Part shown: positions 25,700 to 36,378 of the stretch, piece by piece | Layout: each line of letters begins with the position of its first letter | How positions within the stretch are numbered: the first letter of the stretch is position 1 | Origin: Chloroflexota bacterium | GTDB lineage: Bacteria; Chloroflexota; Anaerolineae; JAAEKA01 | NCBI GenBank assembly: GCA_034717495.1 | Contig: JAYELL010000054.1 | Span: 1-37,858, forward strand | Length of the DNA stretch: 37,858 bases | Direction of reading: 5' to 3' | The notes under the pieces: generated by a model | Database searches by the model: none | Seen by the model: only the letters and a program-made list of their open reading frames with translations | Told to the model about the DNA's origin: nothing | Program-made: the position numbers and the translations under genes

Positions 25700-27934
25700 T
25701 CAAGGGCGCACCATGCCTGTCATTTCGACGGCAACCTGTTCACCCAGGTTCGCCAATGAGTCGTAGAGAACCTGGATAACATATTTGCCGTTGTGGGCGA
25801 ATGCACCTGGATCCTTCTGGACGTACTGATAGTTGTAGGCAGCCTTCAGCAGGTTGGGTGTCCAACTGGAGTAGGCATTGGGGTAAATCGCCTCATCCGG
25901 ATCCGCCACACCATCTCCGCTGGTATCGTTGAAGAAGTAGGGATAGCTGTGCGATTCGTACACGATGGGTGCGCCTACTACCTCGGCAGAATAGAGCTGC
26001 ATAGCTTCGTAGAGCTTGTCAGCCATCGTCCCGATCTCGCCAACAATCCCTTCATCCACATCACCATCACCATCGTAGTCGGCAACCGAGGCCGGACCCC
26101 GGATATCCGCGACATCCTCAACATCCACATGGCAGGTGAAGCAGCTGTCGGTCTTGACCTCCAACTCGTGGGTGCTATGACAGTCGGTGCAGTCCTGGAA
26201 GCCCTCTACGTGTCCGAACTTACCCAGGTATTCGAGATCAGGATACTGATAGGCGCCCTTGGCCTCGTCCCCGAACAGAGTTGCGCCAGCGGCGAAGTAG
26301 TGAACATTGGAGAAGCGCAGATTATTCTCTGGAACGGCATCGGGCGGCAGCCCCTCGGTGGCTTTGTCCAAGGTGCCAGTCCAGGCGCGGCCCTGATGGC
26401 AGTTGATGCAGAGATTGCTGTCTGCATCAGCCATGGACAGCACCGCACCGCTGGGGAACTCGACCTCGGTCACCTCGTATCGGGCATAGTCGTCAAGATT
26501 CTCGTGGCAGGTGGTACAGTTGAACCCGTTTGATGGCTCCAGAGATAGGTTGACTCCCTGGTCCAGGAAAATGGGCAGACCATCGGCAGTATGGCATTTC
26601 GAGCAGGACGCCGATACTTCGCCATCCTCGTCCCAGTGGCGGAAGGCTTCCTCCGATCCGGCAAAGTGTCCAGGATCGATGCGGGCAGCCGCGGAAAGAT
26701 CCACGGGTTCAGCGATGGCCTGGTTCAGATCATCGATGGAGTCGTAAAGAAGTTGGATGACGTACTTGCCGTTATGGGCGAACTCACCCGGATCCTTCTG
26801 GGAGAGCTGGTAGTTGTACGCCGCCTTGAGCAGCCGTGGCGACCAGGCGTTGTACTTGTTGCCATAGTTGGCTTCTTCCTGGCTGGCTTCGCCATCACCG
26901 TCGGTATCGATGAAGAAGTAGGGATATCCAGTCGGCGTGTACACGATCGGCGTGCCGATGACTTCCGTGGCATAGGCCTGGATAGCCGGGGAAAGCATCT
27001 CCTGCAGGCCCTGGATCTCCTCCATCACACCTTCTTCGACGTTGCCATCGCCATCGTAGTCGGCCTCAGAGCCCTCCATGCGCACCATGGCGAAATCCTC
27101 AACGGATTCGACATCGGTGTGGCAGGCCTGGCATTCCGCCAGTTTGATCTCAAGGGTATGGGAGCTATGGCAGCTGTCGCACGTGTTGTAGTCCTCGACA
27201 TGGAAGAACTTGGCGTCGTAGGCCTTGCCGTCGTATTCATAACCACCCTGGGCCAGGGTACCATACTGGGTAGCGGCAGCCGGATAGTAGTGAACGTTTT
27301 TGAAGCCCAACTCCTCGCTGACAGTGTCCACATCCTCGGTCAACCCAGCTTCTTCGATGGCCGTATTGACACTGACCGTCGACTCGCGGCCCTGATGGCA
27401 CTCCATGCAGCGAGCTTCATCACCCAGGCCAGTTATCTCGGCGCCCGAGGGAAATACCACACTATCCTTGTGGATCGTGGACTGGTTGTGGCAGGCAACA
27501 CAGGTAACAGTAGAGCCTACCGGGTGATCTTCATTTACCACACCTGGCTCTGAACCATCCTCACCCAGGAAATCGAGATAACCACCCTCGCTGTGGCACT
27601 TGGCACAGTTGGCCGGCACCACGGCGGGATCATCCTCGTTCCAGTGGGCAAAGGCTTCTGCCTCGGCGTCCGCGTGGCCCGACGCCAGCCAGGCTTCGGC
27701 GAAGGGTACGGCAGAGAGATCTGGCTCCGGGCAAGGCTCGGCTTCGGGGCAGGGCTCCGGCTCTGAACAGGGTGCACATTCAGGGCAGGGCTCTGCAGGT
27801 GGACAATCGGGGCACTCCGGACACTCGACCGGAGTCGTTGCTGGCGCGGGTGCCGGTTGGCTGGGGGTACTACATGCAACAAGCAACAATCCCAATGCCA
27901 GCAGCACTACAATTAGCAGGTAGCTACGTTTCAT
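25700..27934 (-). CDS. Decahaem c-type cytochrome lipoprotein with an internal duplication
   Basis: A 744-residue exported multihaem cytochrome. The lipoprotein signal peptide ends in LLVACS, so Cys21 should be lipid-modified and the protein held on the outer face of the membrane. A low-complexity stretch of Pro, Glu and eight Cys follows (ECPECPDCPPAEP and relatives, about 37-72). Two homologous halves each carry five CxxCH sites: CAKCH, CVACH, CMECH, CDSCH and CQACH in the first; CSKCH, CTTCH, CINCH, CTDCH and CFTCH in the second. Each half also has two calcium-loop-like segments (DYDGDGNVEEG, DTDGDGEASQEE; DYDGDGDVDEG, DTSGDGVADPDE) and ends with NGKYVIQxLYDS. It has its own promoter and terminator and is divergent from the octahaem operon. 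It is probably a cell-surface electron carrier or reductase; the substrate is unknown. Confidence 0.9.
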   Translation of the reverse strand: MKRSYLLIVVLLALGLLLVACSTPSQPAPAPATTPVECPECPDCPPAEPCPECAPCSEPEPCPEAEPCPEPDLSAVPFAEAWLASGHADAEAEAFAHWNEDDPAVVPANCAKCHSEGGYLDFLGEDGSEPGVVNEDHPVGSTVTCVACHNQSTIHKDSVVFPSGAEITGLGDEARCMECHQGRESTVSVNTAIEEAGLTEDVDTVSEELGFKNVHYYPAAATQYGTLAQGGYEYDGKAYDAKFFHVEDYNTCDSCHSSHTLEIKLAECQACHTDVESVEDFAMVRMEGSEADYDGDGNVEEGVMEEIQGLQEMLSPAIQAYATEVIGTPIVYTPTGYPYFFIDTDGDGEASQEEANYGNKYNAWSPRLLKAAYNYQLSQKDPGEFAHNGKYVIQLLYDSIDDLNQAIAEPVDLSAAARIDPGHFAGSEEAFRHWDEDGEVSASCSKCHTADGLPIFLDQGVNLSLEPSNGFNCTTCHENLDDYARYEVTEVEFPSGAVLSMADADSNLCINCHQGRAWTGTLDKATEGLPPDAVPENNLRFSNVHYFAAGATLFGDEAKGAYQYPDLEYLGKFGHVEGFQDCTDCHSTHELEVKTDSCFTCHVDVEDVADIRGPASVADYDGDGDVDEGIVGEIGTMADKLYEAMQLYSAEVVGAPIVYESHSYPYFFNDTSGDGVADPDEAIYPNAYSSWTPNLLKAAYNYQYVQKDPGAFAHNGKYVIQVLYDSLANLGEQVAVEMTGMVRP

Positions 27935-27991: not shown

Positions 27992-28029
27992 GCGCATTGA
28001 GATCAGTGGGGATATTCCTCCCAATGCGC
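27992..28029 (-). promoter_or_regulatory. Inverted repeat in the 5' leader of the decahaem gene, with a degenerate operator-like core
   Basis: GCGCATTG (27992-27999) and CAATGCGC (28022-28029) are perfect complements 22 bases apart, inside the predicted untranslated leader. The loop contains GGGGATATTCCTC (28008-28020), which matches the GGGGA-N3-TNCCC palindrome of the other cytochrome promoters except for one position. It may be an RNA hairpin or a regulator site. Confidence 0.4.
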
Positions 28030-28182: not shown

Positions 28183-28196
28183 ATGATATAGATCAT
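28183..28196. promoter_or_regulatory. FNR/CRP-type dyad between divergent cytochrome operons
   Basis: ATGATATAGATCAT is a perfect ATGAT-N4-ATCAT dyad, one base per half-site away from the FNR consensus TTGAT-N4-ATCAA. Its centre is about 100 bases upstream of the predicted decahaem start. Oxygen- or NO-responsive control by an FNR/DNR-like protein is plausible for anaerobic respiration genes. No such regulator is encoded in the window. Confidence 0.45.
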
Positions 28197-28296: not shown

Positions 28297-28315
28297 CATG
28301 GGAATCTTCCCCATG
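28297..28315. promoter_or_regulatory. Upstream copy of the GGGGA-N3-TNCCC palindrome
   Basis: CATGGGAATCTTCCCCATG: 6-base perfect arms (CATGGG/CCCATG) around 7 bases. Read on the minus strand the core is GGGGAAGATTCCC. Its centre lies 66 bases upstream of the second copy (28366-28378), so both copies may face the same side of the helix and serve the plus-strand octahaem operon. The binding protein is proposed, not shown, to be the NarL-type regulator at 33630-34277. Confidence 0.5.
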
Positions 28316-28365
28316 CCCTCCCGGTCAGTGCCCCACAAACGCCTGTCGCCCATGGAAACCAAGAT

Positions 28366-28378
28366 GGGGACAATCCCC
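28366..28378 (+). promoter_or_regulatory. GGGGA-N3-TCCCC operator just upstream of the octahaem operon promoter
   Basis: GGGGACAATCCCC is a perfect 5-base dyad around CAA. It ends exactly 2 bases before the -35 box TTGAAA at 28381. The same arrangement, with the same 2-base gap, is found on the minus strand at 33565-33577. The position (centre about -45) suits an activator that contacts sigma. NreC-type NarL-family regulators are known to bind GGG-Nx-CCC dyads, which fits the regulator encoded nearby. Confidence 0.55.
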
Positions 28379-28380
28379 GA

Positions 28381-28410
28381 TTGAAATCAACCCGGTCCGC
28401 ATGTTAGACT
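28381..28410 (+). promoter_or_regulatory. Predicted promoter of the octahaem/FeS/NrfD operon
   Basis: TTGAAA (28381-28386), a spacer of 18, then TAGACT (28405-28410) preceded by TGT (extended -10). The spacer and -10 are not ideal, so activation by a protein bound at 28366-28378 would make sense. The start near 28417 leaves about 75 bases before the first small gene. Confidence 0.5.
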
Positions 28411-28491
28411 GAACATAGGAAAGCTGTCGAAATACCGGAAGGGTTCACTGCAATGTTGATCTCTGCAGTTCAGTGGTAAAGGAGCATCGTC

Positions 28492-28617
28492 ATGATAACC
28501 CCAGTAGTGTCGATCATCGGGCTGGCAATTCTCCGACTCGGTGTCCCGTTTGTATCCGTGATTCTATTAGGCATCGTTGCCCGGCGTATTGACCAGGCAT
28601 TTCCGGTCACAACGTGA
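28492..28617 (+). CDS. 41-residue membrane peptide, paralogue of the N-terminus of the two-CW protein
   Basis: A very short gene: GGAG at 28481-28484, ATG 28492, TGA 28615-28617. The product is almost one membrane helix: SIIGLAILRLGVPFVSVILL, then GIVARRIDQAFPVTT. The core ILRLGVPF matches VLRIGVPL in the membrane helix of the larger protein at 33029-33469. Both genes lie first in their operon, directly before a multihaem cytochrome gene. Conserved position and sequence argue that it is a true gene, perhaps an assembly factor or a small subunit of the cytochrome complex. No known family name was recognised. It ends 38 bases before the octahaem gene. Confidence 0.6.
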   Translation: MITPVVSIIGLAILRLGVPFVSVILLGIVARRIDQAFPVTT

Positions 28618-28655
28618 TCGGTCTCTCGCCTCTCACTTCCAGCAGGAGAAATGCC

Positions 28656-29624
28656 ATGCTAGGATTTTCTCTACACCACCGCATGCGATCCCGGCAGATG
28701 TTGCTGGCATGCGGTCTCACTCTCTTTCTTCTGGTCCTTCTACCGGTATCGGGGTTGGCCTATCAGTCCGAGCCAGAGTATTCGGGGCCGGAAAAGTGCG
28801 CGTTATGCCACATGGCAGAAACCCGTAGCTGGGAAAACTCCCCGCACGCTGGCGCGCTCTCATCGATCGAAGATGTCCACGAATTAGCCTGTGGTGAGGC
28901 CGGTTCCACCGTCGACTGCCAATGCATGACCTGTCATACAACCAACTTCGATCCCGATCTGCACACCTATGCCAGTGGCGGCGTAACCTGCGAGGCCTGC
29001 CACGGCGCCTACGTCGATGACCATCCGGAAAACGGCGTGATGCAGTTACAGGTCGACTCGGCTGTCTGCAGCAATTGTCATATAGAGACCCACAAGGAGT
29101 GGCAAGAGACAGCCCACGGCAATGCCAACGTGCAGTGCATCGGCTGTCACCAGGTCCACTCCCAGGATCTGAGGCTGACCGATCAGACACTCTGCCAATC
29201 ATGCCATCGAGATCGTCTAGAAGATTCAGGGCATATTGCCCACGCCAGAGCCAGTGTCCAGTGCACCGATTGCCATGCTTCACCCGACTCGGTGGCGCTA
29301 ATGGTCGATAATCCCCTTTTCGGCGGCAAGGCGCCCAGCCATACGTTCGACGTGAGCGCAGAGGCATGCGCCAACTGCCATGGCGAGACATTCCAGACAG
29401 GCGAAATGGTGTCCCTCTCAGGCACGTCTGGACGTACTGTTCCCGGCTCGGCCGTCATCTCCTCTGAAAACGAGGCCGACTGTGAAGAAGCCGAAAAGAC
29501 CAGCCGGCAGACACCGATCTTTGCTGCCGTGAGTCTGGGATTGGGCATCGGCATTGGCTCTCTTCTCGGGATAATCGCTATCGTCTTTATTGGCTTCATC
29601 AATCAGGGGAGCCGTGAATCATGA
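28656..29624 (+). CDS. Octahaem c-type cytochrome with C-terminal membrane anchor
   Basis: A 322-residue exported cytochrome. It has a signal peptide (residues about 15-35), eight CxxCH sites (CALCH 48, CMTCH 90, CEACH 112, CSNCH 138, CIGCH 161, CQSCH 180, CTDCH 203, CANCH 238) and a C-terminal membrane helix at about 287-317. The pattern CHMAETRSWENSPHAGAL after the first haem is common in NapC/NrfH-related and cytochrome c3-like multihaem families. AGGAG at 28644-28648 lies 7 bases before ATG 28656. The stop overlaps the ferredoxin start by 4 bases. It should accept or donate electrons to the FeS protein on the outer face of the membrane. Haems 1-7 align with the heptahaem protein at 32262-33017. 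Confidence 0.92.
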   Translation: MLGFSLHHRMRSRQMLLACGLTLFLLVLLPVSGLAYQSEPEYSGPEKCALCHMAETRSWENSPHAGALSSIEDVHELACGEAGSTVDCQCMTCHTTNFDPDLHTYASGGVTCEACHGAYVDDHPENGVMQLQVDSAVCSNCHIETHKEWQETAHGNANVQCIGCHQVHSQDLRLTDQTLCQSCHRDRLEDSGHIAHARASVQCTDCHASPDSVALMVDNPLFGGKAPSHTFDVSAEACANCHGETFQTGEMVSLSGTSGRTVPGSAVISSENEADCEEAEKTSRQTPIFAAVSLGLGIGIGSLLGIIAIVFIGFINQGSRES

Positions 29625-30556
29625 GCGCCTCAAAGAACACACAGATCTCCCGGCGCGGTTTTCTGAAGCGAGTCGGGACCGGCACGGCGGCTGCCTTCGG
29701 TCTGGCCATGCTGCCTCAACAGGCTCTGTCTGGCTATGCCAGTGGTGATAGCGAGAGTCATGGTCCAACCTGGAGCCTCTTGATTGACCTGACCCGCTGC
29801 ACGGGCTGCGACTCATGCGCTCTGGCCTGCAAGGCAAGCAACGAATTGCCTGATGCGGATGTGGTGCCATCGGCGCTGGATGCCGACACCTACACCTTCG
29901 TCGAAGAGCACCAGGTGACCAAGGCAGACGGCACAACTGTTACACGGTACGTGAAACGACAGTGTATGCACTGCCTGGATGCCTCATGCGTTTCCGCCTG
30001 CCCGGCGGCGGCCATGCACAATAGCGGCGAAGGCCCCGTGATCTACCGGGCCGATCGCTGTCTGGGATGTCGCTACTGCCAGGTGGCCTGCCCCTTCGAG
30101 ATACCTCGTTTCGACTGGGATAACGGGCTCACGCCCAAGATCAGTAAGTGCTGGATGTGCTTCGAAGGGCTCCAGGAAGGTCAGTTGCCGGCGTGCGTCG
30201 AGGCCTGTCCAACGGGTGCTCTTCGCTTTGGACGCAGGGATGACTTGTTGGCCCAGGCCCACGCCCAGATCGCCAGCAATCCTGCGCGCTATATCGATCA
30301 TGTCTATGGTGAAAACGAGGTTGGCGGCACTTCCGTGCTTTATCTCTCGGATGTGCCCTTCGAACAGCTAGGCTTCGTCGCCAACCTGCCTGATACCGCG
30401 CCGGCACAGGAAACCGAAAAAATCATGAGTAAACTTCCAACCGTCATCGCCGGCATGACCGCCTTGATGGCCGGATCTGCCTTCATTACCCATCGGAAAC
30501 CTGCCGAACCGGAGGATATTGTGCCGGAAGCGCTGGTTGTGAAAGAGGAGGAGTAA
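29621..30556 (+). CDS. Tat-exported 4x[4Fe-4S] ferredoxin subunit (HybA/NrfC type) with C-terminal membrane helix
   Basis: A 311-residue electron-transfer protein. The twin-Arg signal SRRGFLKRVGTG (about 10-21) directs it across the membrane folded. Four cysteine quartets follow: CTGCDSCALACK, CMHCLDASCVSACP, CLGCRYCQVACP, and CWMC paired with CVEACP. They would hold four [4Fe-4S] clusters, as in HybA, NrfC and DsrO. A membrane helix near the C-terminus (LPTVIAGMTALMAGSAFI) matches the HybA layout. It overlaps the octahaem gene by 4 bases, and the NrfD-like gene begins 3 bases after its stop. In a complex it would carry electrons between the quinone site of the NrfD-like subunit and the cytochrome. 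No hydrogenase or molybdoenzyme subunit accompanies it. Confidence 0.92.
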   Translation: MSASKNTQISRRGFLKRVGTGTAAAFGLAMLPQQALSGYASGDSESHGPTWSLLIDLTRCTGCDSCALACKASNELPDADVVPSALDADTYTFVEEHQVTKADGTTVTRYVKRQCMHCLDASCVSACPAAAMHNSGEGPVIYRADRCLGCRYCQVACPFEIPRFDWDNGLTPKISKCWMCFEGLQEGQLPACVEACPTGALRFGRRDDLLAQAHAQIASNPARYIDHVYGENEVGGTSVLYLSDVPFEQLGFVANLPDTAPAQETEKIMSKLPTVIAGMTALMAGSAFITHRKPAEPEDIVPEALVVKEEE

Positions 30557-30559
30557 AAG

Positions 30560-31882
30560 ATGGAGCTATTGGCTTCTCCCGCGCTCTGGTTGGTTCTCGC
30601 TCTTAGTGTTGCGATTCCTGTCCTGTTCATCGTCGGTGCCCGGCGCCTTGCCTTACGCATGGTGGACCGGCCCACAGCGATGACCGCTTCCCTGCCAAAA
30701 TTCCTGCCAGCGCCCCGTTTACGCGCACCTTCATTGCGATGGTTGCTGACCCGCGGACTGCTTCTCACGTTGATTGGCACTGGCCTGGGGATCATCATGC
30801 TGCGCTTTGTATATGGCCTTAGCGCAGTGACCAATCTCAGCGATCAGTTCGCCTGGGGACTGTGGATCAGCTTTGATGTCATGTGCGGCGTGGCCCTGGC
30901 GGCCGGAGCCTTTGTCATCGCAGCCACGGTGCACATCTTCCGTCTCGAACGGTTCGAACCACTGGTCCGTCCGGCTATTCTGACCGGGCTGCTGGGCTAC
31001 TTGCTGGTCGTCGCCGGACTGATAGTGGATCTGGGCAGGCCGTACAACGTGTGGCGACCGCTCTTCCACTGGCAGCACCATTCGGTGCTCTGGGAGGTGG
31101 GTGTCTGCGTGGCCACCTACACGACCGTTCTTCTGATCGAGTTTTTGCCCGTGGTGCTGGAAAAGGTCAACCATTTTGAGGCTGTGACCACCCGCTTGCC
31201 TACCGTGAAGCTCACCCAGCTTCTGAAGAAGGTATCGATCGCCTTCGTGATCATGGGTGTCGTTCTCTCCACGCTGCATCAATCATCCCTTGGTTCCCTG
31301 TGGGTACTGATGCCAACCAAGGTTTCACCCTTGTGGTACTCCCTCTACCTGCCTGTTTTCTTCTGGATGTCGGCTATCGCCGTCGGTCTTGCCATGACCA
31401 TCGTAGAGTCTACGCTCAGCTCCAAGGCGTTCAACCGTGGTCTGGAAACACACCTATTGGTCGACCTGGCCAAAGCCGCAGCGGTGGTACTTGCCATCTA
31501 CCTCGCGGTGCGGGCTATCGATCTGGTTGTGCGAGGCGCCTGGCCTCTGATGTTTGAGCCAACGCTCCAGGCCGCCAGCTTCTGGGCAGAGATCGGTCTC
31601 GGCGTAATGCTGCCGATCGTGCTTTTCTCCATCAGGCCCTTGCGCCAACGACATGGCGTGTTGTTCCTGGGCGCTGTTCTGATCGTGGTCTTTGGCGTCG
31701 TGCTGAACAGATTCAATGTCAGCCTGATAGGCCTGCTGCCCTACACCGGACAGATCTATACCCCATCATGGATGGAACTGGTGGTCACAATGACCCTGGT
31801 GTCGCTCGGTGTAATCGCCTTCGGGCTGGCGGCCAAGTATCTGCCGGTGTTTCACGAGGAAGAACATGAGGCATCCCGGTAA
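30560..31882 (+). CDS. NrfD/HybB-family quinone-interacting membrane protein
   Basis: A 440-residue polytopic membrane protein with about ten membrane helices. It belongs to the NrfD/HybB/PsrC family, whose members exchange electrons between the membrane quinone pool and an FeS subunit on the outer face. Family marks are DQFAWGLWISFDVMCGVALA, the VHIFRLERFEPL loop, LIVDLGRPYNVWRPLFHWQ, LSTLHQSSLGSLWVLMP and FNVSLIGLLPYTGQIYTPSW. The layout is nearest to HybB. AGGAGG precedes the ATG by a good distance. It is the last gene of the octahaem-FeS-NrfD operon, and an intrinsic terminator follows at 31937. The direction of electron flow cannot be told from sequence. Confidence 0.93.
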   Translation: MELLASPALWLVLALSVAIPVLFIVGARRLALRMVDRPTAMTASLPKFLPAPRLRAPSLRWLLTRGLLLTLIGTGLGIIMLRFVYGLSAVTNLSDQFAWGLWISFDVMCGVALAAGAFVIAATVHIFRLERFEPLVRPAILTGLLGYLLVVAGLIVDLGRPYNVWRPLFHWQHHSVLWEVGVCVATYTTVLLIEFLPVVLEKVNHFEAVTTRLPTVKLTQLLKKVSIAFVIMGVVLSTLHQSSLGSLWVLMPTKVSPLWYSLYLPVFFWMSAIAVGLAMTIVESTLSSKAFNRGLETHLLVDLAKAAAVVLAIYLAVRAIDLVVRGAWPLMFEPTLQAASFWAEIGLGVMLPIVLFSIRPLRQRHGVLFLGAVLIVVFGVVLNRFNVSLIGLLPYTGQIYTPSWMELVVTMTLVSLGVIAFGLAAKYLPVFHEEEHEASR

Positions 31883-31936
31883 AGACGTGCGACCGGCGTG
31901 AGGGTGCACAGTGGTGTACTCTGATACAATCAATTG

Positions 31937-31962
31937 CCCCGGCAGAGGAGCCGGGGTTTTTT
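31937..31962 (+). terminator. Intrinsic terminator of the octahaem/FeS/NrfD operon
   Basis: CCCCGGC (31937-31943) and GCCGGGG (31950-31956) form a perfect 7-base stem around AGAGGA. Six T follow. It lies 54 bases beyond the NrfD-like stop. The rest of 31963-32038 shows no gene or clear site. Confidence 0.9.
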
Positions 31963-32038
31963 GTTGGATACTGTACACTAAAGTTATGGCAACACCTACT
32001 TCACGGCACGCGCCTGCTGGTGTGCCCGTGCACCTGCT

Positions 32039-32261
32039 CGCTGCGAGAGCATCTCACAGGCCATTGGTATCAAAGTGGCATTGCTCTCGTGTTGGCATCC
32101 GGGCAGCCCCCCCCCCGTCCCCCCAGAGGGGGGTGATGTGAGCGGGATTCCCCCCTTTGGGGGGTTAGGGGGGCAGAACAAGATAGAAACCAGGAGTTTG
32201 TAAGCAATCATCCACGCTGCGAGAGCATCTCACAGGCCATTGGTATCAAAGTGGCATTGCT
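32039..32261 (-). repeat. GC-rich intergenic repeat element, bounded by a 47-bp direct repeat
   Basis: Positions 32039-32085 and 32215-32261 are the same 47 bases (starting CGCTGCGAGAGCATCTCACA). Between them lie long C and G runs: about ten C, then CCCCCCAGAGGGGGG, TGATGTGA, then CCCCCCTTTGGGGGG and TTAGGGGGG. These can form several hairpins and possibly G-quadruplexes. The order of blocks (CAAAGTGGC, CGTGTTGGCATCC, the C/G hairpins, TGATGTGA, AAACCAGG) is the reverse complement of the array at 37535-37858. The element ends exactly at the stop codon of the heptahaem gene. Confidence 0.85.
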
Positions 32262-33017
32262 TTAATCTTTGCCGGATGAGGGGATGCCGGCCATGAAGGT
32301 ATGGCCTGTGGGGGACCCGCCAGCCATCACGACTTGGGCGACGGGATGTGCCAGGTGGCAGTCAACGCACAGTTTCTCCTGCGCCGGGAAGCCATAGCCG
32401 GCGTGGGCCGAACCCAGTTTCTCCCTCTGGTGACACAGGAGGCATAACGAGTCGCTGGAGGTGGCGACGCGAGGTTTCTGACTATGCACCTCGTGACAGG
32501 CAGCACAGGAAACCCCGACCTGTCCGTGCTTGCTGTCCCGCCACTCATCCAGCGTGGTCGAGTGACAGGCGCCACAGAGTTCAGCCGAGGTTGCGATAGC
32601 CATGCTTTCTGCCGGGTGTTCCGGATGATAGGGTCCGTGACACGCCTCGCAGGTCACACCGGCCGACGAAAAACGCCCCGAAACAAGATTGTAACCGGTG
32701 GTATGACAGGGCAAACACTGGGAGGGTTCCGCTGTCTGCTTCAGTTTCACCTGGAAGGATGGATTGAAGGATGCCTGGGCGTGAGCAGTGCCGGCCCAGG
32801 CAAAAAACTGCTGATCATGACAGATGGCACACTGCTGGGGACCGGTGGCACTGGCCCAGAAATCATGGGAATCTCCAGCTTTCGCAGCCGAACGGGAGAC
32901 CGCTCCGGGCGCTCCCAACAGGGAACCGATTATGGTTGTTGCAATGATTGATGTCGTGAGCCCCACCACCAGCCACTGGCAGCGATTCCGGAGGTTGGCA
33001 GGGATTCGTTTTGACAT
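32262..33017 (-). CDS. Heptahaem c-type cytochrome, probably shortened at its C-terminus
   Basis: A 251-residue exported cytochrome. A membrane-spanning signal or anchor lies at about residues 15-40 (WLVVGLTTSIIATTIIGSLL). Seven CxxCH sites follow: CAICH, CLPCH, CEACH, CGACH, CAACH, CLLCH and CVDCH. It is a paralogue of the octahaem protein at 28656-29624: SAGVTCEACHGPYHPEHP matches SGGVTCEACHGAYVDDHP, and CHEVHSQ matches CHQVHSQ. After the shared G-H/S-HTF segment the octahaem protein continues to an eighth haem and a membrane helix, while this one ends (IPSSGKD) at a repeat edge. It lies 11 bases after the two-CW gene and shares its promoter. It is probably extracytoplasmic and still able to carry electrons. 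Confidence 0.88.
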   Translation of the reverse strand: MSKRIPANLRNRCQWLVVGLTTSIIATTIIGSLLGAPGAVSRSAAKAGDSHDFWASATGPQQCAICHDQQFFAWAGTAHAQASFNPSFQVKLKQTAEPSQCLPCHTTGYNLVSGRFSSAGVTCEACHGPYHPEHPAESMAIATSAELCGACHSTTLDEWRDSKHGQVGVSCAACHEVHSQKPRVATSSDSLCLLCHQREKLGSAHAGYGFPAQEKLCVDCHLAHPVAQVVMAGGSPTGHTFMAGIPSSGKD

Positions 33018-33028
33018 TTTTCGCCCAC

Positions 33029-33469
33029 TTAGTGTATCACCTGCCGTTCCGCCCAGACAGGTGCGTACTGCGTGTACAGGTCACAGTTGCTGCATTCGGG
33101 GGGCATTCTTCCTTCAGCCCCCTGGCGCGCCGTCCAACAGGGAACGTCCGGCTGGTGGCCCGCGGCGCAGTCTGCCCTCATGGCCTCGCTGCAGCCCTTC
33201 AGCGACCAGCAAGGCAGACCTGCCATGACACTGATCGCGGTTGGTTGAATGGTTGGCACTGCCGTGGCGGGATAGCCGCGCGGCGACCGGGATTTCGCTT
33301 GCACTTTGACCGGCCTTTGCCGGGGCTGTTTTCCGGCCTCGGCTTCGGCCTGCCACCTGGCGTCCAGGCGCAGAAGCACGTAGCCAATGCCGATCGTGAT
33401 CAGCAAAGGTACGCCAATACGCAGAACAAACAGTCCCAATATCGTCAATGCGCCGGTGAAGCCATCCAT
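33029..33469 (-). CDS. Small membrane protein with a C-terminal two-CW cysteine domain
   Basis: A 146-residue protein starting at ATG 33469. One membrane helix lies near the N-terminus (GALTILGLFVLRIGVPLLIT), with the LRxGVP core shared with the 41-residue peptide at 28492-28617. A basic, Pro/Gln-rich linker follows (about 45-75). The last 55 residues carry LPCWSLKGC, DC, PCWTARQGAEG and CSNCDLY: two CW motifs, each with further cysteines. This fits the two-CW domain I know from some PAS and chemotaxis proteins, thought to bind a metal or redox centre. It is first in an operon with the heptahaem cytochrome and may sense or handle redox state for it, or help its assembly. Longer in-frame starts upstream cross the promoter and are unlikely. 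Confidence 0.65.
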   Translation of the reverse strand: MDGFTGALTILGLFVLRIGVPLLITIGIGYVLLRLDARWQAEAEAGKQPRQRPVKVQAKSRSPRGYPATAVPTIQPTAISVMAGLPCWSLKGCSEAMRADCAAGHQPDVPCWTARQGAEGRMPPECSNCDLYTQYAPVWAERQVIH

Positions 33470-33533
33470 GCTGTTGCCCTTTTTTCTGATCAAGCCATAG
33501 CACACAGGTCCCGTTGACACTGCCGCTATTCTC

Positions 33534-33577
33534 AGCTTACCATGGGGGCGGCTCAGATTCAATCGGGTAATTTCCCC
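33534..33577 (-). promoter_or_regulatory. Promoter and operator of the two-CW/heptahaem operon
   Basis: On the minus strand: operator GGGGAAATTACCC (33577-33565), 2 bases, -35 TTGAAT (33562-33557), a spacer of 17, and -10 TAAGCT (33539-33534) preceded by TGG (extended -10). The operator-to-promoter spacing is the same as at 28366-28410, and the flanking ATGGGGA and CGATTGAA are also shared. The start near 33527 leaves about 58 bases before the ATG. Confidence 0.55.
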
Positions 33578-33629
33578 ATTTTTTTTGTGGGGAGAAGGGC
33601 CGGGAAAAGAAAAAGGGCCGCTGCTTGTG

Positions 33630-34277
33630 TTACAGGCTGATAAACCCCTTCTCAATCGCGTACTTGACCAGTTCAACCCGGTTGTGCAGGTTGAGTTTCC
33701 GCATGATATTCTCCCGGTGCCGATCCACGGTTTTTACGCTGATCACCAGTTCCTTGGCGATCTCCTTATTGGACTTTCCTTCGGCGATCAGGGTAAGCAC
33801 TTCTCGCTCGCGAGGGGTGAGTACCTCCTTGGTGGCCGATGTCGCCTCAGCCCGTTGCAGAAACTCGTTGACCAGTAGCTTGGCCAGCGATGGATAGATA
33901 AAAACATCACCCTGATTGGCGACCCGAATGGCAGCCACCAGATCGTCAGGCGCAGCACGCTTGGGCACGTAGCCCGATGCCCCGGCATTGAGCATTTCAA
34001 AAAAGTATTGTTCGTCCTCATGCATGGTCAGCGCCAATACGGCTACATCAGGAGCCTTTGCTTTGATCCGGCGCGTTGCCTCGATACCACTCATGCCCGG
34101 CATCGCTACATCCATGAGTATCACATCTGGCTCCAACGCTTCGAGGGCCAAAATGGCTTCTTCGCCACTGCCGGCTTCCCCCACAATCTCGAAATCGTTT
34201 TCAGCCAGGAATAACATGCGTAATCCAGCTCGTACAATGTCGTGGTCATCAACCAGCAGAAGCTTGATCTTCGACAT
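33630..34277 (-). CDS. NarL/LuxR-family response regulator
   Basis: A 215-residue two-component regulator. The receiver domain (1-120) has the acidic pair in LLVDDHDIVRAG, the phospho-accepting Asp56 in VILMDVAMPGMSG, the Thr in VLALTMHEDE and the Lys in GYVPKRA. The C-terminal LuxR-type helix-turn-helix is clear: LTPREREVLTLIAEGKSNKE, then IAKELVISVKTVDRHRENIM. It overlaps the kinase gene by 29 bases and is surely its partner. The nearest functional analogues are NreC, NarL and DegU-like regulators. The GGGGA-N3-TNCCC palindromes at the two cytochrome operons are the best candidate targets. Confidence 0.95.
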   Translation of the reverse strand: MSKIKLLLVDDHDIVRAGLRMLFLAENDFEIVGEAGSGEEAILALEALEPDVILMDVAMPGMSGIEATRRIKAKAPDVAVLALTMHEDEQYFFEMLNAGASGYVPKRAAPDDLVAAIRVANQGDVFIYPSLAKLLVNEFLQRAEATSATKEVLTPREREVLTLIAEGKSNKEIAKELVISVKTVDRHRENIMRKLNLHNRVELVKYAIEKGFISL

Positions 34278-36378
34278 CAGTTGTCGCTACCTCCTGTCCA
34301 AGTAAGGGAATGCTCACCCATATTCGAGTGCCGGCGTCGGGCTCCGAATCAATGGCACACTCGCCGCCCAATAGTGCGGACCGTTCCTGGATTCCCATCA
34401 ATCCCCAACCCGAGTAGGGAACCTGGCCTGTCGACAGCAGGCCCACATCAAATCCCTTGCCATCGTCCTCGACGATCAGGCAGACCAGAGTCGGCACAAA
34501 ACGCAGAACCACCGTGATACTGGAGGCAGCGGCGTGTTTGGCAACGTTGGTCAAGGCTTCCTGGAAGATCCGGAACAGCACGGTCTCGTATTCCGATGGC
34601 AGTCGAACCGGTGTGCCCTCGACAATAAACTCAACCGGCGTGTCCAGGCGTTTCTCGAACGCCTCGGTATACCAGCTGATCGCCGGTGCCAGACCCATGT
34701 CGTCAAGCAATGGGGGGCGCAGGTCGGCGATGATCTGTCGCAGTTCGCCCAACGCATCGGTGCTGAAGGATTTTATTTCACGCACCTGGCTGACCAATTG
34801 GCCCCCTGCCTTGCCATCGGTTTCCAGCAGGGTTTCCACACCACGCAGGCCGAGGGCAATAGCCGTCAGTGACTGGGCAGTGGCATCGTGAAGTTCACGG
34901 GCAATGCGCTTTCTTTCGGCTTCCTGGGCGCCCACTACCTGATGCAACAATTCACCAAGAGTCTGCTCCCGATCCTGAGCATCGCTGTATAGCCGGGCAT
35001 TCTCTATGGAAAGTCCCAACTGCCGTGTCACACCCAAAATCAGTTGCAGTTCATCGAGCGCCAGGTCGTGATACCCCTCGGCCCCAGCCTGTACCAGAAC
35101 TATGCTGCCGATGACCTGTTCCCGCACGAACAAAGGCAAACTGATCATCGTCACCGGGCTGGCATAGAGATGGCACTCGGGTTCGGTCAACGCCTGTTCA
35201 AATGAGACTTCCAACACCTCGCCATCCAGGTGTTCGCATAATACAAGCTTCTGGGTTGCACATTTTTCACCCAAGTCCCGAGCTCGCTCCAGCCGGGCAG
35301 AGCAGTCTGCCGAGGCGCAGCAACACTCTGCCTGCACTTCGAAGTCGCCCGTGCGCCGGTTGATCAGCAAGATCAAGCCCGCCTCAGGAAAATCAAGGCT
35401 ACGCACGAGCCGCTGTAGAGCAGCCTGCTGGCGAGCCTGCATCTCCATTTGGCTCGCCAGCAGGTTGGAAAGCTCCAGCATCAGGGCGAGTTCACGCGCG
35501 GTATTTCGCAACTCGGCATTGAGGCGTTCCCTCTCCTGGCCGGTCTGTTGCGCAGCTACCAGCGCCTCCGACTGTGCCTCTACCCTTGCCTCGTTCGCGT
35601 ATTCCAGTCGCCGCTGGCTCTCGACCTCAAAAGCATTCAACGTGCGTACCATGAAAAAGGCCAGAATGCCAGCCATGACCCCGCGAAAAAGCTGGATCGG
35701 GACGCCAAACCAATCAAGAAAGAGGGCGCTGTTGATGACCGACGATGGGAAAAGCACTGTCTCCCGGACAAAAAGCTGACCGACCACACCGTAGAGCAGC
35801 AGGGCCGTCGCGGCCCAAACCAGATCGCGGCCAAACTGGGGTATACCATGTTCGCGAAAAGTCCGCTGCTGAGCCATTAATGCCCACGCACCCAGAAGAG
35901 CGGCAGGAATCCCCAAACTGTAACGAGCCAGAACATCGGCGATACCAACCGCGTCATCCGAGGATAACTGCAACGTCAGGGTCACCACCACCGTTCCTGC
36001 TGCCCAGATGCCAAACACAATCAGCAGAGGAAACAGCAGCCGGCCTCCTGTCGTCTGCCCTGGCCGCAGAAGTCGCATGCCGAATGCTAATAGCATCAGA
36101 AACGAGACCACGAGAAAGGCCAGGCGGATGACTTCATGCAGCACGGTGGGTGCATACCCGGAGGTCAATGCCGCCACCAGTTGGAACATCACGATCCATT
36201 CGTGAACGCCGTGCAGAATGCCAAAGGCTGCCAGAGGCACAATGGCCTGGGCAAATCGGAACTCTGACCTCCTGCGACTTGCAAGGGCCAATGCCAGTCC
36301 CATGGCAAAAAAGGCCAGGCCGTAAAAAAAATATATGAGAACGCCGTAGCGCACAAGGAAGGCCGAAATCGGATTCAT
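34249..36378 (-). CDS. Membrane sensor histidine kinase (HisKA_3) with a cysteine-rich GAF domain
   Basis: A 709-residue kinase. Six or seven membrane helices fill residues 10-250, with His56, His59 and His81 in or near the membrane. A coiled coil follows (about 255-305). The GAF-like domain (about 310-465) contains an unusual cysteine cluster: Cys352-353-354, 359, 373, 381 and 402. Such a cluster could bind an FeS centre, haem or zinc, or act as a thiol switch. The HisKA_3 dimerisation domain has the phospho-accepting His497 in RKRIARELHDATAQSL. The HATPase domain (about 595-695) has the N-box EALTNVAKHA and the G-boxes VEDDGKGFD and GWGLMGIQER. Domain order and gene partner recall the NreB/NreC oxygen sensor and the NarX family. 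It is probably a redox or oxygen sensor for the cytochrome operons. Confidence 0.93.
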   Translation of the reverse strand: MNPISAFLVRYGVLIYFFYGLAFFAMGLALALASRRRSEFRFAQAIVPLAAFGILHGVHEWIVMFQLVAALTSGYAPTVLHEVIRLAFLVVSFLMLLAFGMRLLRPGQTTGGRLLFPLLIVFGIWAAGTVVVTLTLQLSSDDAVGIADVLARYSLGIPAALLGAWALMAQQRTFREHGIPQFGRDLVWAATALLLYGVVGQLFVRETVLFPSSVINSALFLDWFGVPIQLFRGVMAGILAFFMVRTLNAFEVESQRRLEYANEARVEAQSEALVAAQQTGQERERLNAELRNTARELALMLELSNLLASQMEMQARQQAALQRLVRSLDFPEAGLILLINRRTGDFEVQAECCCASADCSARLERARDLGEKCATQKLVLCEHLDGEVLEVSFEQALTEPECHLYASPVTMISLPLFVREQVIGSIVLVQAGAEGYHDLALDELQLILGVTRQLGLSIENARLYSDAQDREQTLGELLHQVVGAQEAERKRIARELHDATAQSLTAIALGLRGVETLLETDGKAGGQLVSQVREIKSFSTDALGELRQIIADLRPPLLDDMGLAPAISWYTEAFEKRLDTPVEFIVEGTPVRLPSEYETVLFRIFQEALTNVAKHAAASSITVVLRFVPTLVCLIVEDDGKGFDVGLLSTGQVPYSGWGLMGIQERSALLGGECAIDSEPDAGTRIWVSIPLLGQEVATTDVEDQASAG

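Follow-up and report, generated by a model that had tools for sequence, protein, structure and literature searches.

A conserved two-promoter regulon of multihaem cytochrome operons beside a NarL-type two-component pair in Chloroflexota

The 37,858-nucleotide stretch of DNA analysed here (the window) is contig C54 of the genome of a Chloroflexota bacterium (5.0 Mb in 120 contigs) and carries two operons for the multihaem c-type cytochromes CYT1 and CYT2, next to the genes for a NarL/NreC-type response regulator, the putative operator binder, and its cognate histidine kinase. Both operons are preceded by the same dyad operator set against an extended -10 promoter, and they make up a genuine, conserved regulon with two promoters; regulons of this general kind are known, and here the regulator, the operator and the signal are uncharacterised. 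The original prediction, at its core that both operons belong to one local regulon of the neighbouring NarL-type pair, has good support: operator, weak -35 and extended -10 of orthologous promoters are conserved in many families, operator and regulator co-occur, and the promoter profile is specific in the home genome. Direct binding of the regulator to the operator is what the sequences would predict.

A shared operator abutting two extended -10 promoters

The two promoters had originally been recognised by a common 13-mer, GGGGACAATCCCC at 28366-28378 on the plus strand and GGGGAAATTACCC at 33577-33565 on the minus strand. Both copies are present at equal spacing from their promoters, each being followed by GA, then by TTGAAA or TTGAAT, and then by an extended -10. 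The shared flanks ATGGGGA and CGATTGAA were also correctly described, as was a third copy, CATGGGAATCTTCCCCATG at 28297-28315, 66-67 bp upstream of the first.

Comparison of 80 loci carrying regulator homologues (a first forty and a more distant forty) redefined this element. In most of the first forty loci, and in many of the distant forty, the genes beside the kinase-regulator pair are those for a small membrane protein, CYT2 and/or CYT1-HmcB-HmcC. A 48-nucleotide block, AAATGGGG-N6-CCC(A/G)AT(A/T)GA...GTGnTAnnnT (35 training sites), recurs upstream of these target genes. Conservation over 61 sites is highest at the outer A,T and A,T (59-61 sequences) and at the first two Cs (60), and lower at the four Gs (44-52); the operator is therefore best described as an 18-bp dyad, AT-N-GGG-N6-CCC-N-AT, at a near-fixed distance from the extended -10. 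Its consensus is ATGGGG-N6-CCC(R/C)AT, and a further copy usually lies upstream. The operator abuts the first base of a weak -35, poor and variable across relatives, which is followed by the extended -10 TGnTAnnnT. The motif GGGGA-N3-TNCCC, by which the element had first been defined, picked out real sites, but this definition is superseded by the 18-bp dyad, the 13-mer being unspecific genome-wide.

In the window, the CYT1 proximal operator (ATGGGGACAATCCCCGAT, 28364..28381, plus strand) ends on the first base of the -35 and is nearly invariant in an alignment of four same-family genomes. The predicted CYT1 promoter (28381..28410, plus strand) consists of the -35 TTGAAA, an 18-bp spacer and the extended -10 TGTTAGACT (TAGACT after TGT); the aligned relatives have a spacer of 17 and the -10 TGRTATnCT. 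The CYT2 proximal operator (ATGGGGAAATTACCCGAT, 33562..33579, minus strand), whose core is invariant in relatives, precedes a predicted promoter (33534..33562, minus strand) with the -35 TTGAAT, a 17-bp spacer and the extended -10 TGGTAAGCT (TAAGCT after TGG). Both operators match the strict dyad RTGGGG-N6-CCCNAY exactly and, assuming that the -10 starts at -12, their predicted centres lie at ~-44.5 (CYT1) and ~-43.5 (CYT2). In the same-family alignments of both promoters, operator and -10 are near-invariant while the surrounding intergenic DNA has diverged, and the whole block of genes is kept in three syntenic relatives (L001-L003).

A search of the 110 bp upstream of the proximal operator in 61 promoters, against a shuffled-DNA null, identified a second dyad that is complete (12 of 12 consensus bases) in 17 promoters (null mean 0.005) and has at least 11 of these bases in 30 (null 0.055), with distances falling mainly at 23-26, 33-37, 66-68 and 75-78 bp. 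The best phasing period among those tried was 10.5 bp (R 0.82 for 38 sites, many of them at the 25-bp distance); the P-value over 7 distance clusters is ~0.05, and helical phasing is therefore suggestive only. The CYT1 distal operator of the window is the CATGGGAATCTTCCCCATG copy (28297..28315, unstranded), a 17-bp variant with 9 of the 12 consensus bases in the 18-bp register; same-family relatives carry a perfect or near copy of the dyad 67 bp upstream of the CYT1 proximal operator. The CYT2 distal operator (CCCGGCCCTTCTCCCCAC, 33587..33604, minus strand), 25 bp upstream of the proximal one, retains the right half only (CTCCCCAC), and its 8 of 12 consensus bases are, taken alone, about chance level; relatives carry CTAGGGAAGTCACCC at this 25-bp position.

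Specificity of the composite promoter and co-occurrence with the regulator

Profile R1 is a sequence-only model of the 48-nucleotide operator-plus-promoter built from 27 sites, which include the window CYT2 site and exclude the window CYT1 site. In the home genome, R1 ranked the trained site first (33534-33581, E = 2.3e-6) and the untrained CYT1 site second (28362-28410, E = 0.013), the next match (0.86) being noise; in each of the four same-family genomes it found two good sites, at the orthologous promoters. When 40 held-out loci were searched with a matrix, the eight best matches were all located upstream of target genes, as were 14 of the 21 matches above 12 bits, against a mean of 5.2 total matches for column-permuted matrices. 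Most profile matches precede genes for the small membrane protein, a multihaem cytochrome or the HmcB/C-like complex.

The exact 13-mer pattern occurs in the window as 5 strand-matches at four places, one of which (28831) falls within a gene, versus 0.60 +/- 0.91 in shuffles (1 of 100 reaches 5); with one mismatch allowed there is no clear excess in the window (23 versus 16.3, reached by 12 of 100 shuffles). A genome-wide scan with the original pattern GGGGA-N3-TNCCC yielded 42 matches versus 30 in the reversed control, a near-background result, and it is the conservation and the composite promoter, not the 13-mer by itself, that show the shared element to be real. The strict dyad RTGGGG-N6-CCCNAY matches four times in 5.0 Mb, twice at the window operators and twice on contigs C68 and C83 at places without evident target; the control gives 5. 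Two further patterns were set aside: TGGG-N7-CCCCA (53 versus 14 control matches in the home genome), because coding bias may set the reversed control apart and the matches are unplaced relative to genes, and a two-site pattern that proved too strict over 396 genomes of the class (9 matches, 6 in regulator-positive genomes).

The regulator (33630..34277, minus strand) combines a receiver domain (PF00072, 4.5e-30) with a GerE/LuxR-type helix-turn-helix (PF00196, 9.9e-25) and is encoded with a histidine kinase of the HisKA_3 type, whose adjoining gene (34249..36378, minus strand) overlaps its own; it thus belongs to the NarL/FixJ family, and its best solved relatives are VraR, NarL and DevR. A search from the regulator alignment A1 identified close homologues in 133 of the 396 class genomes, and regulator and HmcC homologues co-occur with an odds ratio of 16, shared ancestry being ignored. 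R1 matches at E <= 0.02 were found in 32 of the 396 genomes, 29 of which carry the regulator at the stringent cut-off. In two others (G001 and G202) the regulator gene, next to the operator, runs off the end of its contig, and G270 has a single weak match (E 0.011). The association of regulator and operator is significant overall (Fisher test, P = 4e-12, with shared ancestry ignored) and in genomes outside training (P ~2e-4, for a group size estimated by hand), and weaker within HmcC-positive genomes alone (P = 0.013).

Cooperative activation and its alternatives

We consider it likely that the adjacent kinase-regulator pair governs both operons as a small regulon through cooperative, DevR-like activation; binding, activation and the role of phosphorylation are what we infer from these comparisons. 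The phosphorylated regulator would bind the 18-bp dyads as dimers, one at about -44 in contact with the weak -35 and a second further upstream, by 67 bp at the CYT1 operon or by 25 bp at the CYT2 operon (where the site is degenerate here). Together, the two dimers would recruit RNA polymerase to the extended -10 promoter in the fashion of DevR/DosR, and two multihaem cytochromes would be expressed in coordination with an HmcBC-like complex that is probably linked to quinones. Much of the class has kept the shared site along with the neighbouring sensor and regulator, so that both operons are probably turned on by a single environmental signal.

Cooperative activation is favoured because the DevR/DosR arrangement is the nearest one, with OsdR having equal outer spacing. 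In DevR/DosR promoters of Mycobacterium tuberculosis, close-packed sites are bound cooperatively and the start-proximal site overlaps the -35 (PMC3029386), and the consensus of OsdR of Streptomyces coelicolor is AGGGCCGATCGGCCCT, AGGG-N8-CCCT (PMC5069765). The window system shares with both the G-run/C-run dyad, GGG-N8-CCC being equal to the outer spacing of GGGG-N6-CCCC, as well as at least two close sites, the start-nearest lying on the -35, and two-component control of respiratory or hypoxic genes (PMC3029386, PMC5069765); this promoter layout is found across the class, the window CYT2 distal site being degenerate. It differs in the outer AT...AT bases of its operator, in the R after CCC in the proximal site, so that only GGG-N6-CCC is kept there, in its recognition-helix residues (judged by eye), kinase and genes, and in a much smaller regulon. 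The precedent cited originally was NreC, which for Staphylococcus carnosus and Bacillus licheniformis is described only as binding a GC-rich palindrome (PMC5694512, PMC9918477); among documented arrangements, that of DevR/DosR comes closest. NreBC resembles the window pair in joining a NarL-family regulator to a HisKA_3-type kinase and in controlling respiratory or sulfur redox genes through such a palindrome (PMC5694512, PMC9918477). However, NreB is an oxygen sensor with a 4Fe-4S PAS domain and NreA a nitrate-binding protein, whereas the window kinase has a multi-transmembrane region and a GAF domain; Pfam assigns it only GAF, HisKA_3 and HATPase, with no PAS, and no NreA-like gene lies beside the pair. 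ComA of Bacillus subtilis likewise uses an inverted repeat of the NarL-family type that precedes the RNA polymerase site, together with a second element closer to the promoter, but the consensus there is TTGCGG-N4-CCGCAA and the second element consists of a direct repeat (PMC4797271).

The same operators and regulator could also serve repression, with the regulator covering the -35 region until released on signal, since the proximal site touches the -35 and an extended -10 could work without an activator. We regard this as unlikely: the -35 boxes are poor and variable across relatives, an upstream second site at stereotyped distances better fits an activator, and NarL-family regulators of like layout, such as DevR, activate (PMC3029386). 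That a different transcription factor binds the conserved site while the two-component pair controls something else is improbable. Such a reading can draw on the binding by the neighbouring regulator being only deduced, on the other NarL-family regulators of the genome and on a conserved CRP/FNR-like dyad in the CYT1 upstream region, but the operator occurs almost exclusively in genomes that carry this regulator, mostly beside it, and a G-run/C-run dyad is the kind of site bound by the NarL-family regulators DevR and OsdR.

Chance similarity, or a promoter inherited without regulatory meaning from a duplicated operon start, would accord with the near-background frequency of the 13-mer genome-wide and with the related small membrane proteins that begin both operons, because of which the promoters may indeed share ancestry. 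Yet this explanation is contradicted by the held-out prediction, by the genome-wide specificity of the composite and by the recurrent second dyads, as well as by an operator and -10 that stay near-invariant amid diverged DNA, and we consider it extremely improbable. Several observations do weigh against a cooperatively activated regulon of the adjacent pair. R1 matches are present in only 29 of the 133 regulator-positive genomes, so that either the operator has drifted in the more distant families or R1 is too narrow; the co-occurrence tests take no account of shared ancestry, and many matches come from training genomes; the genome encodes close NarL-type paralogues (7 matches to the regulator profile); and the distal sites of the window are degenerate (CYT2) or a 17-bp variant (CYT1).

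Gene content, sensing and biological meaning

From left to right, the locus comprises a decahaem-type lipoprotein gene (25700-27934, minus strand), the divergent CYT1 operon, the convergent CYT2 operon, the regulator and the kinase. The CYT1 operon begins with a 41-amino-acid, single-transmembrane protein with an LRLGVP motif (28492..28617, plus strand), small relatives of which head the equivalent operon elsewhere, and continues on the same strand with CYT1 (28614..29624; PF13435), whose true start is probably an ATG near 28656, an HmcB/HybA-like Fe-S protein (29621..30556) and an HmcC/HybB-like membrane protein of the NrfD family (30560..31882; PF03916). The CYT2 operon, on the minus strand, comprises a small membrane protein with an LRIGVP motif (33029..33469), the orthologues of which directly adjoin the regulator in most loci, and CYT2 (32262..33017). 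The LRxGVP motif is thus common to the first-gene proteins of both operons and is kept beside the regulator across the class; comparison of these proteins with Pfam gave no family. The Fe-S and NrfD-type subunits, encoded beside multihaem cytochromes, are closest to HmcB and HmcC of the Hmc complex of sulfate reducers, but all matches fall under the NCBIfam equivalog cut-offs (HmcB, 258 bits versus 420; HmcC, 319 versus 550) and the window lacks a hexadecahaem HmcA (20 bits for CYT1 versus a cut-off of 400), so that the predicted complex is Hmc-like rather than Hmc. Between the convergent operons, a direct repeat of ~45 nucleotides (gagagcatctcacaggccattggtatcaaagtggcattgct) at 32037-32085 and 32217-32262 flanks C-run/G-run inverted repeats.

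The decahaem gene, originally proposed as a possible member of the regulon, does not appear to belong to it: no operator-promoter was found upstream of it in the genomes examined, the best profile score upstream of that gene is negative, and the weak copy at 28008-28020, although present, is not conserved in the same-family relatives aligned, and control through it was rejected. What the intergenic region does hold is a CRP/FNR-like dyad that is conserved, so that a different regulator may control the decahaem gene. This dyad, TGAT-N4-ATCA at 28184-28195 (plus strand), lies between the divergent decahaem and CYT1 genes, is kept in four same-family genomes and stands 115 bp upstream of the distal operator in the window and ~40 bp upstream of it in relatives. 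On an unrelated Chloroflexi contig, two GGGGATA(A/G)TCCCC dyads (L012:2314 and L012:3244) occur in repeated contexts, each followed by a terminator-like hairpin and a T run, and probably represent a different repeat.

The kinase, whose nearest named relatives come from Litorilinea/Caldilineaceae metagenome-assembled genomes (Chloroflexota), has a long N-terminal multi-transmembrane region with invariant H56, E60, W61 and M64. Its Cys-rich GAF domain was rejected as the essential sensor, being absent from several orthologues. The signal is therefore probably perceived in or near the membrane, and the input is probably a redox or electron-acceptor cue acting through this conserved region. No operator site lies upstream of the kinase operon in the window that would point to autoregulation.

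A full-text literature search retrieved no report of such a regulon, and regulation in these uncultured Chloroflexota is little known. We tentatively propose a class-conserved, dedicated two-component regulon: its kinase may sense the redox state or an extracellular electron acceptor by means of an undescribed sensor region in the membrane and switch an HmcBC-like multihaem electron-export module via helically phased tandem operators. The analysis yields a specific regulator-operator candidate pair for a widespread multihaem cytochrome module. It also provides a profile by which the promoter can be recognised in further genomes, and a way towards the signal that turns this electron-transfer route on.

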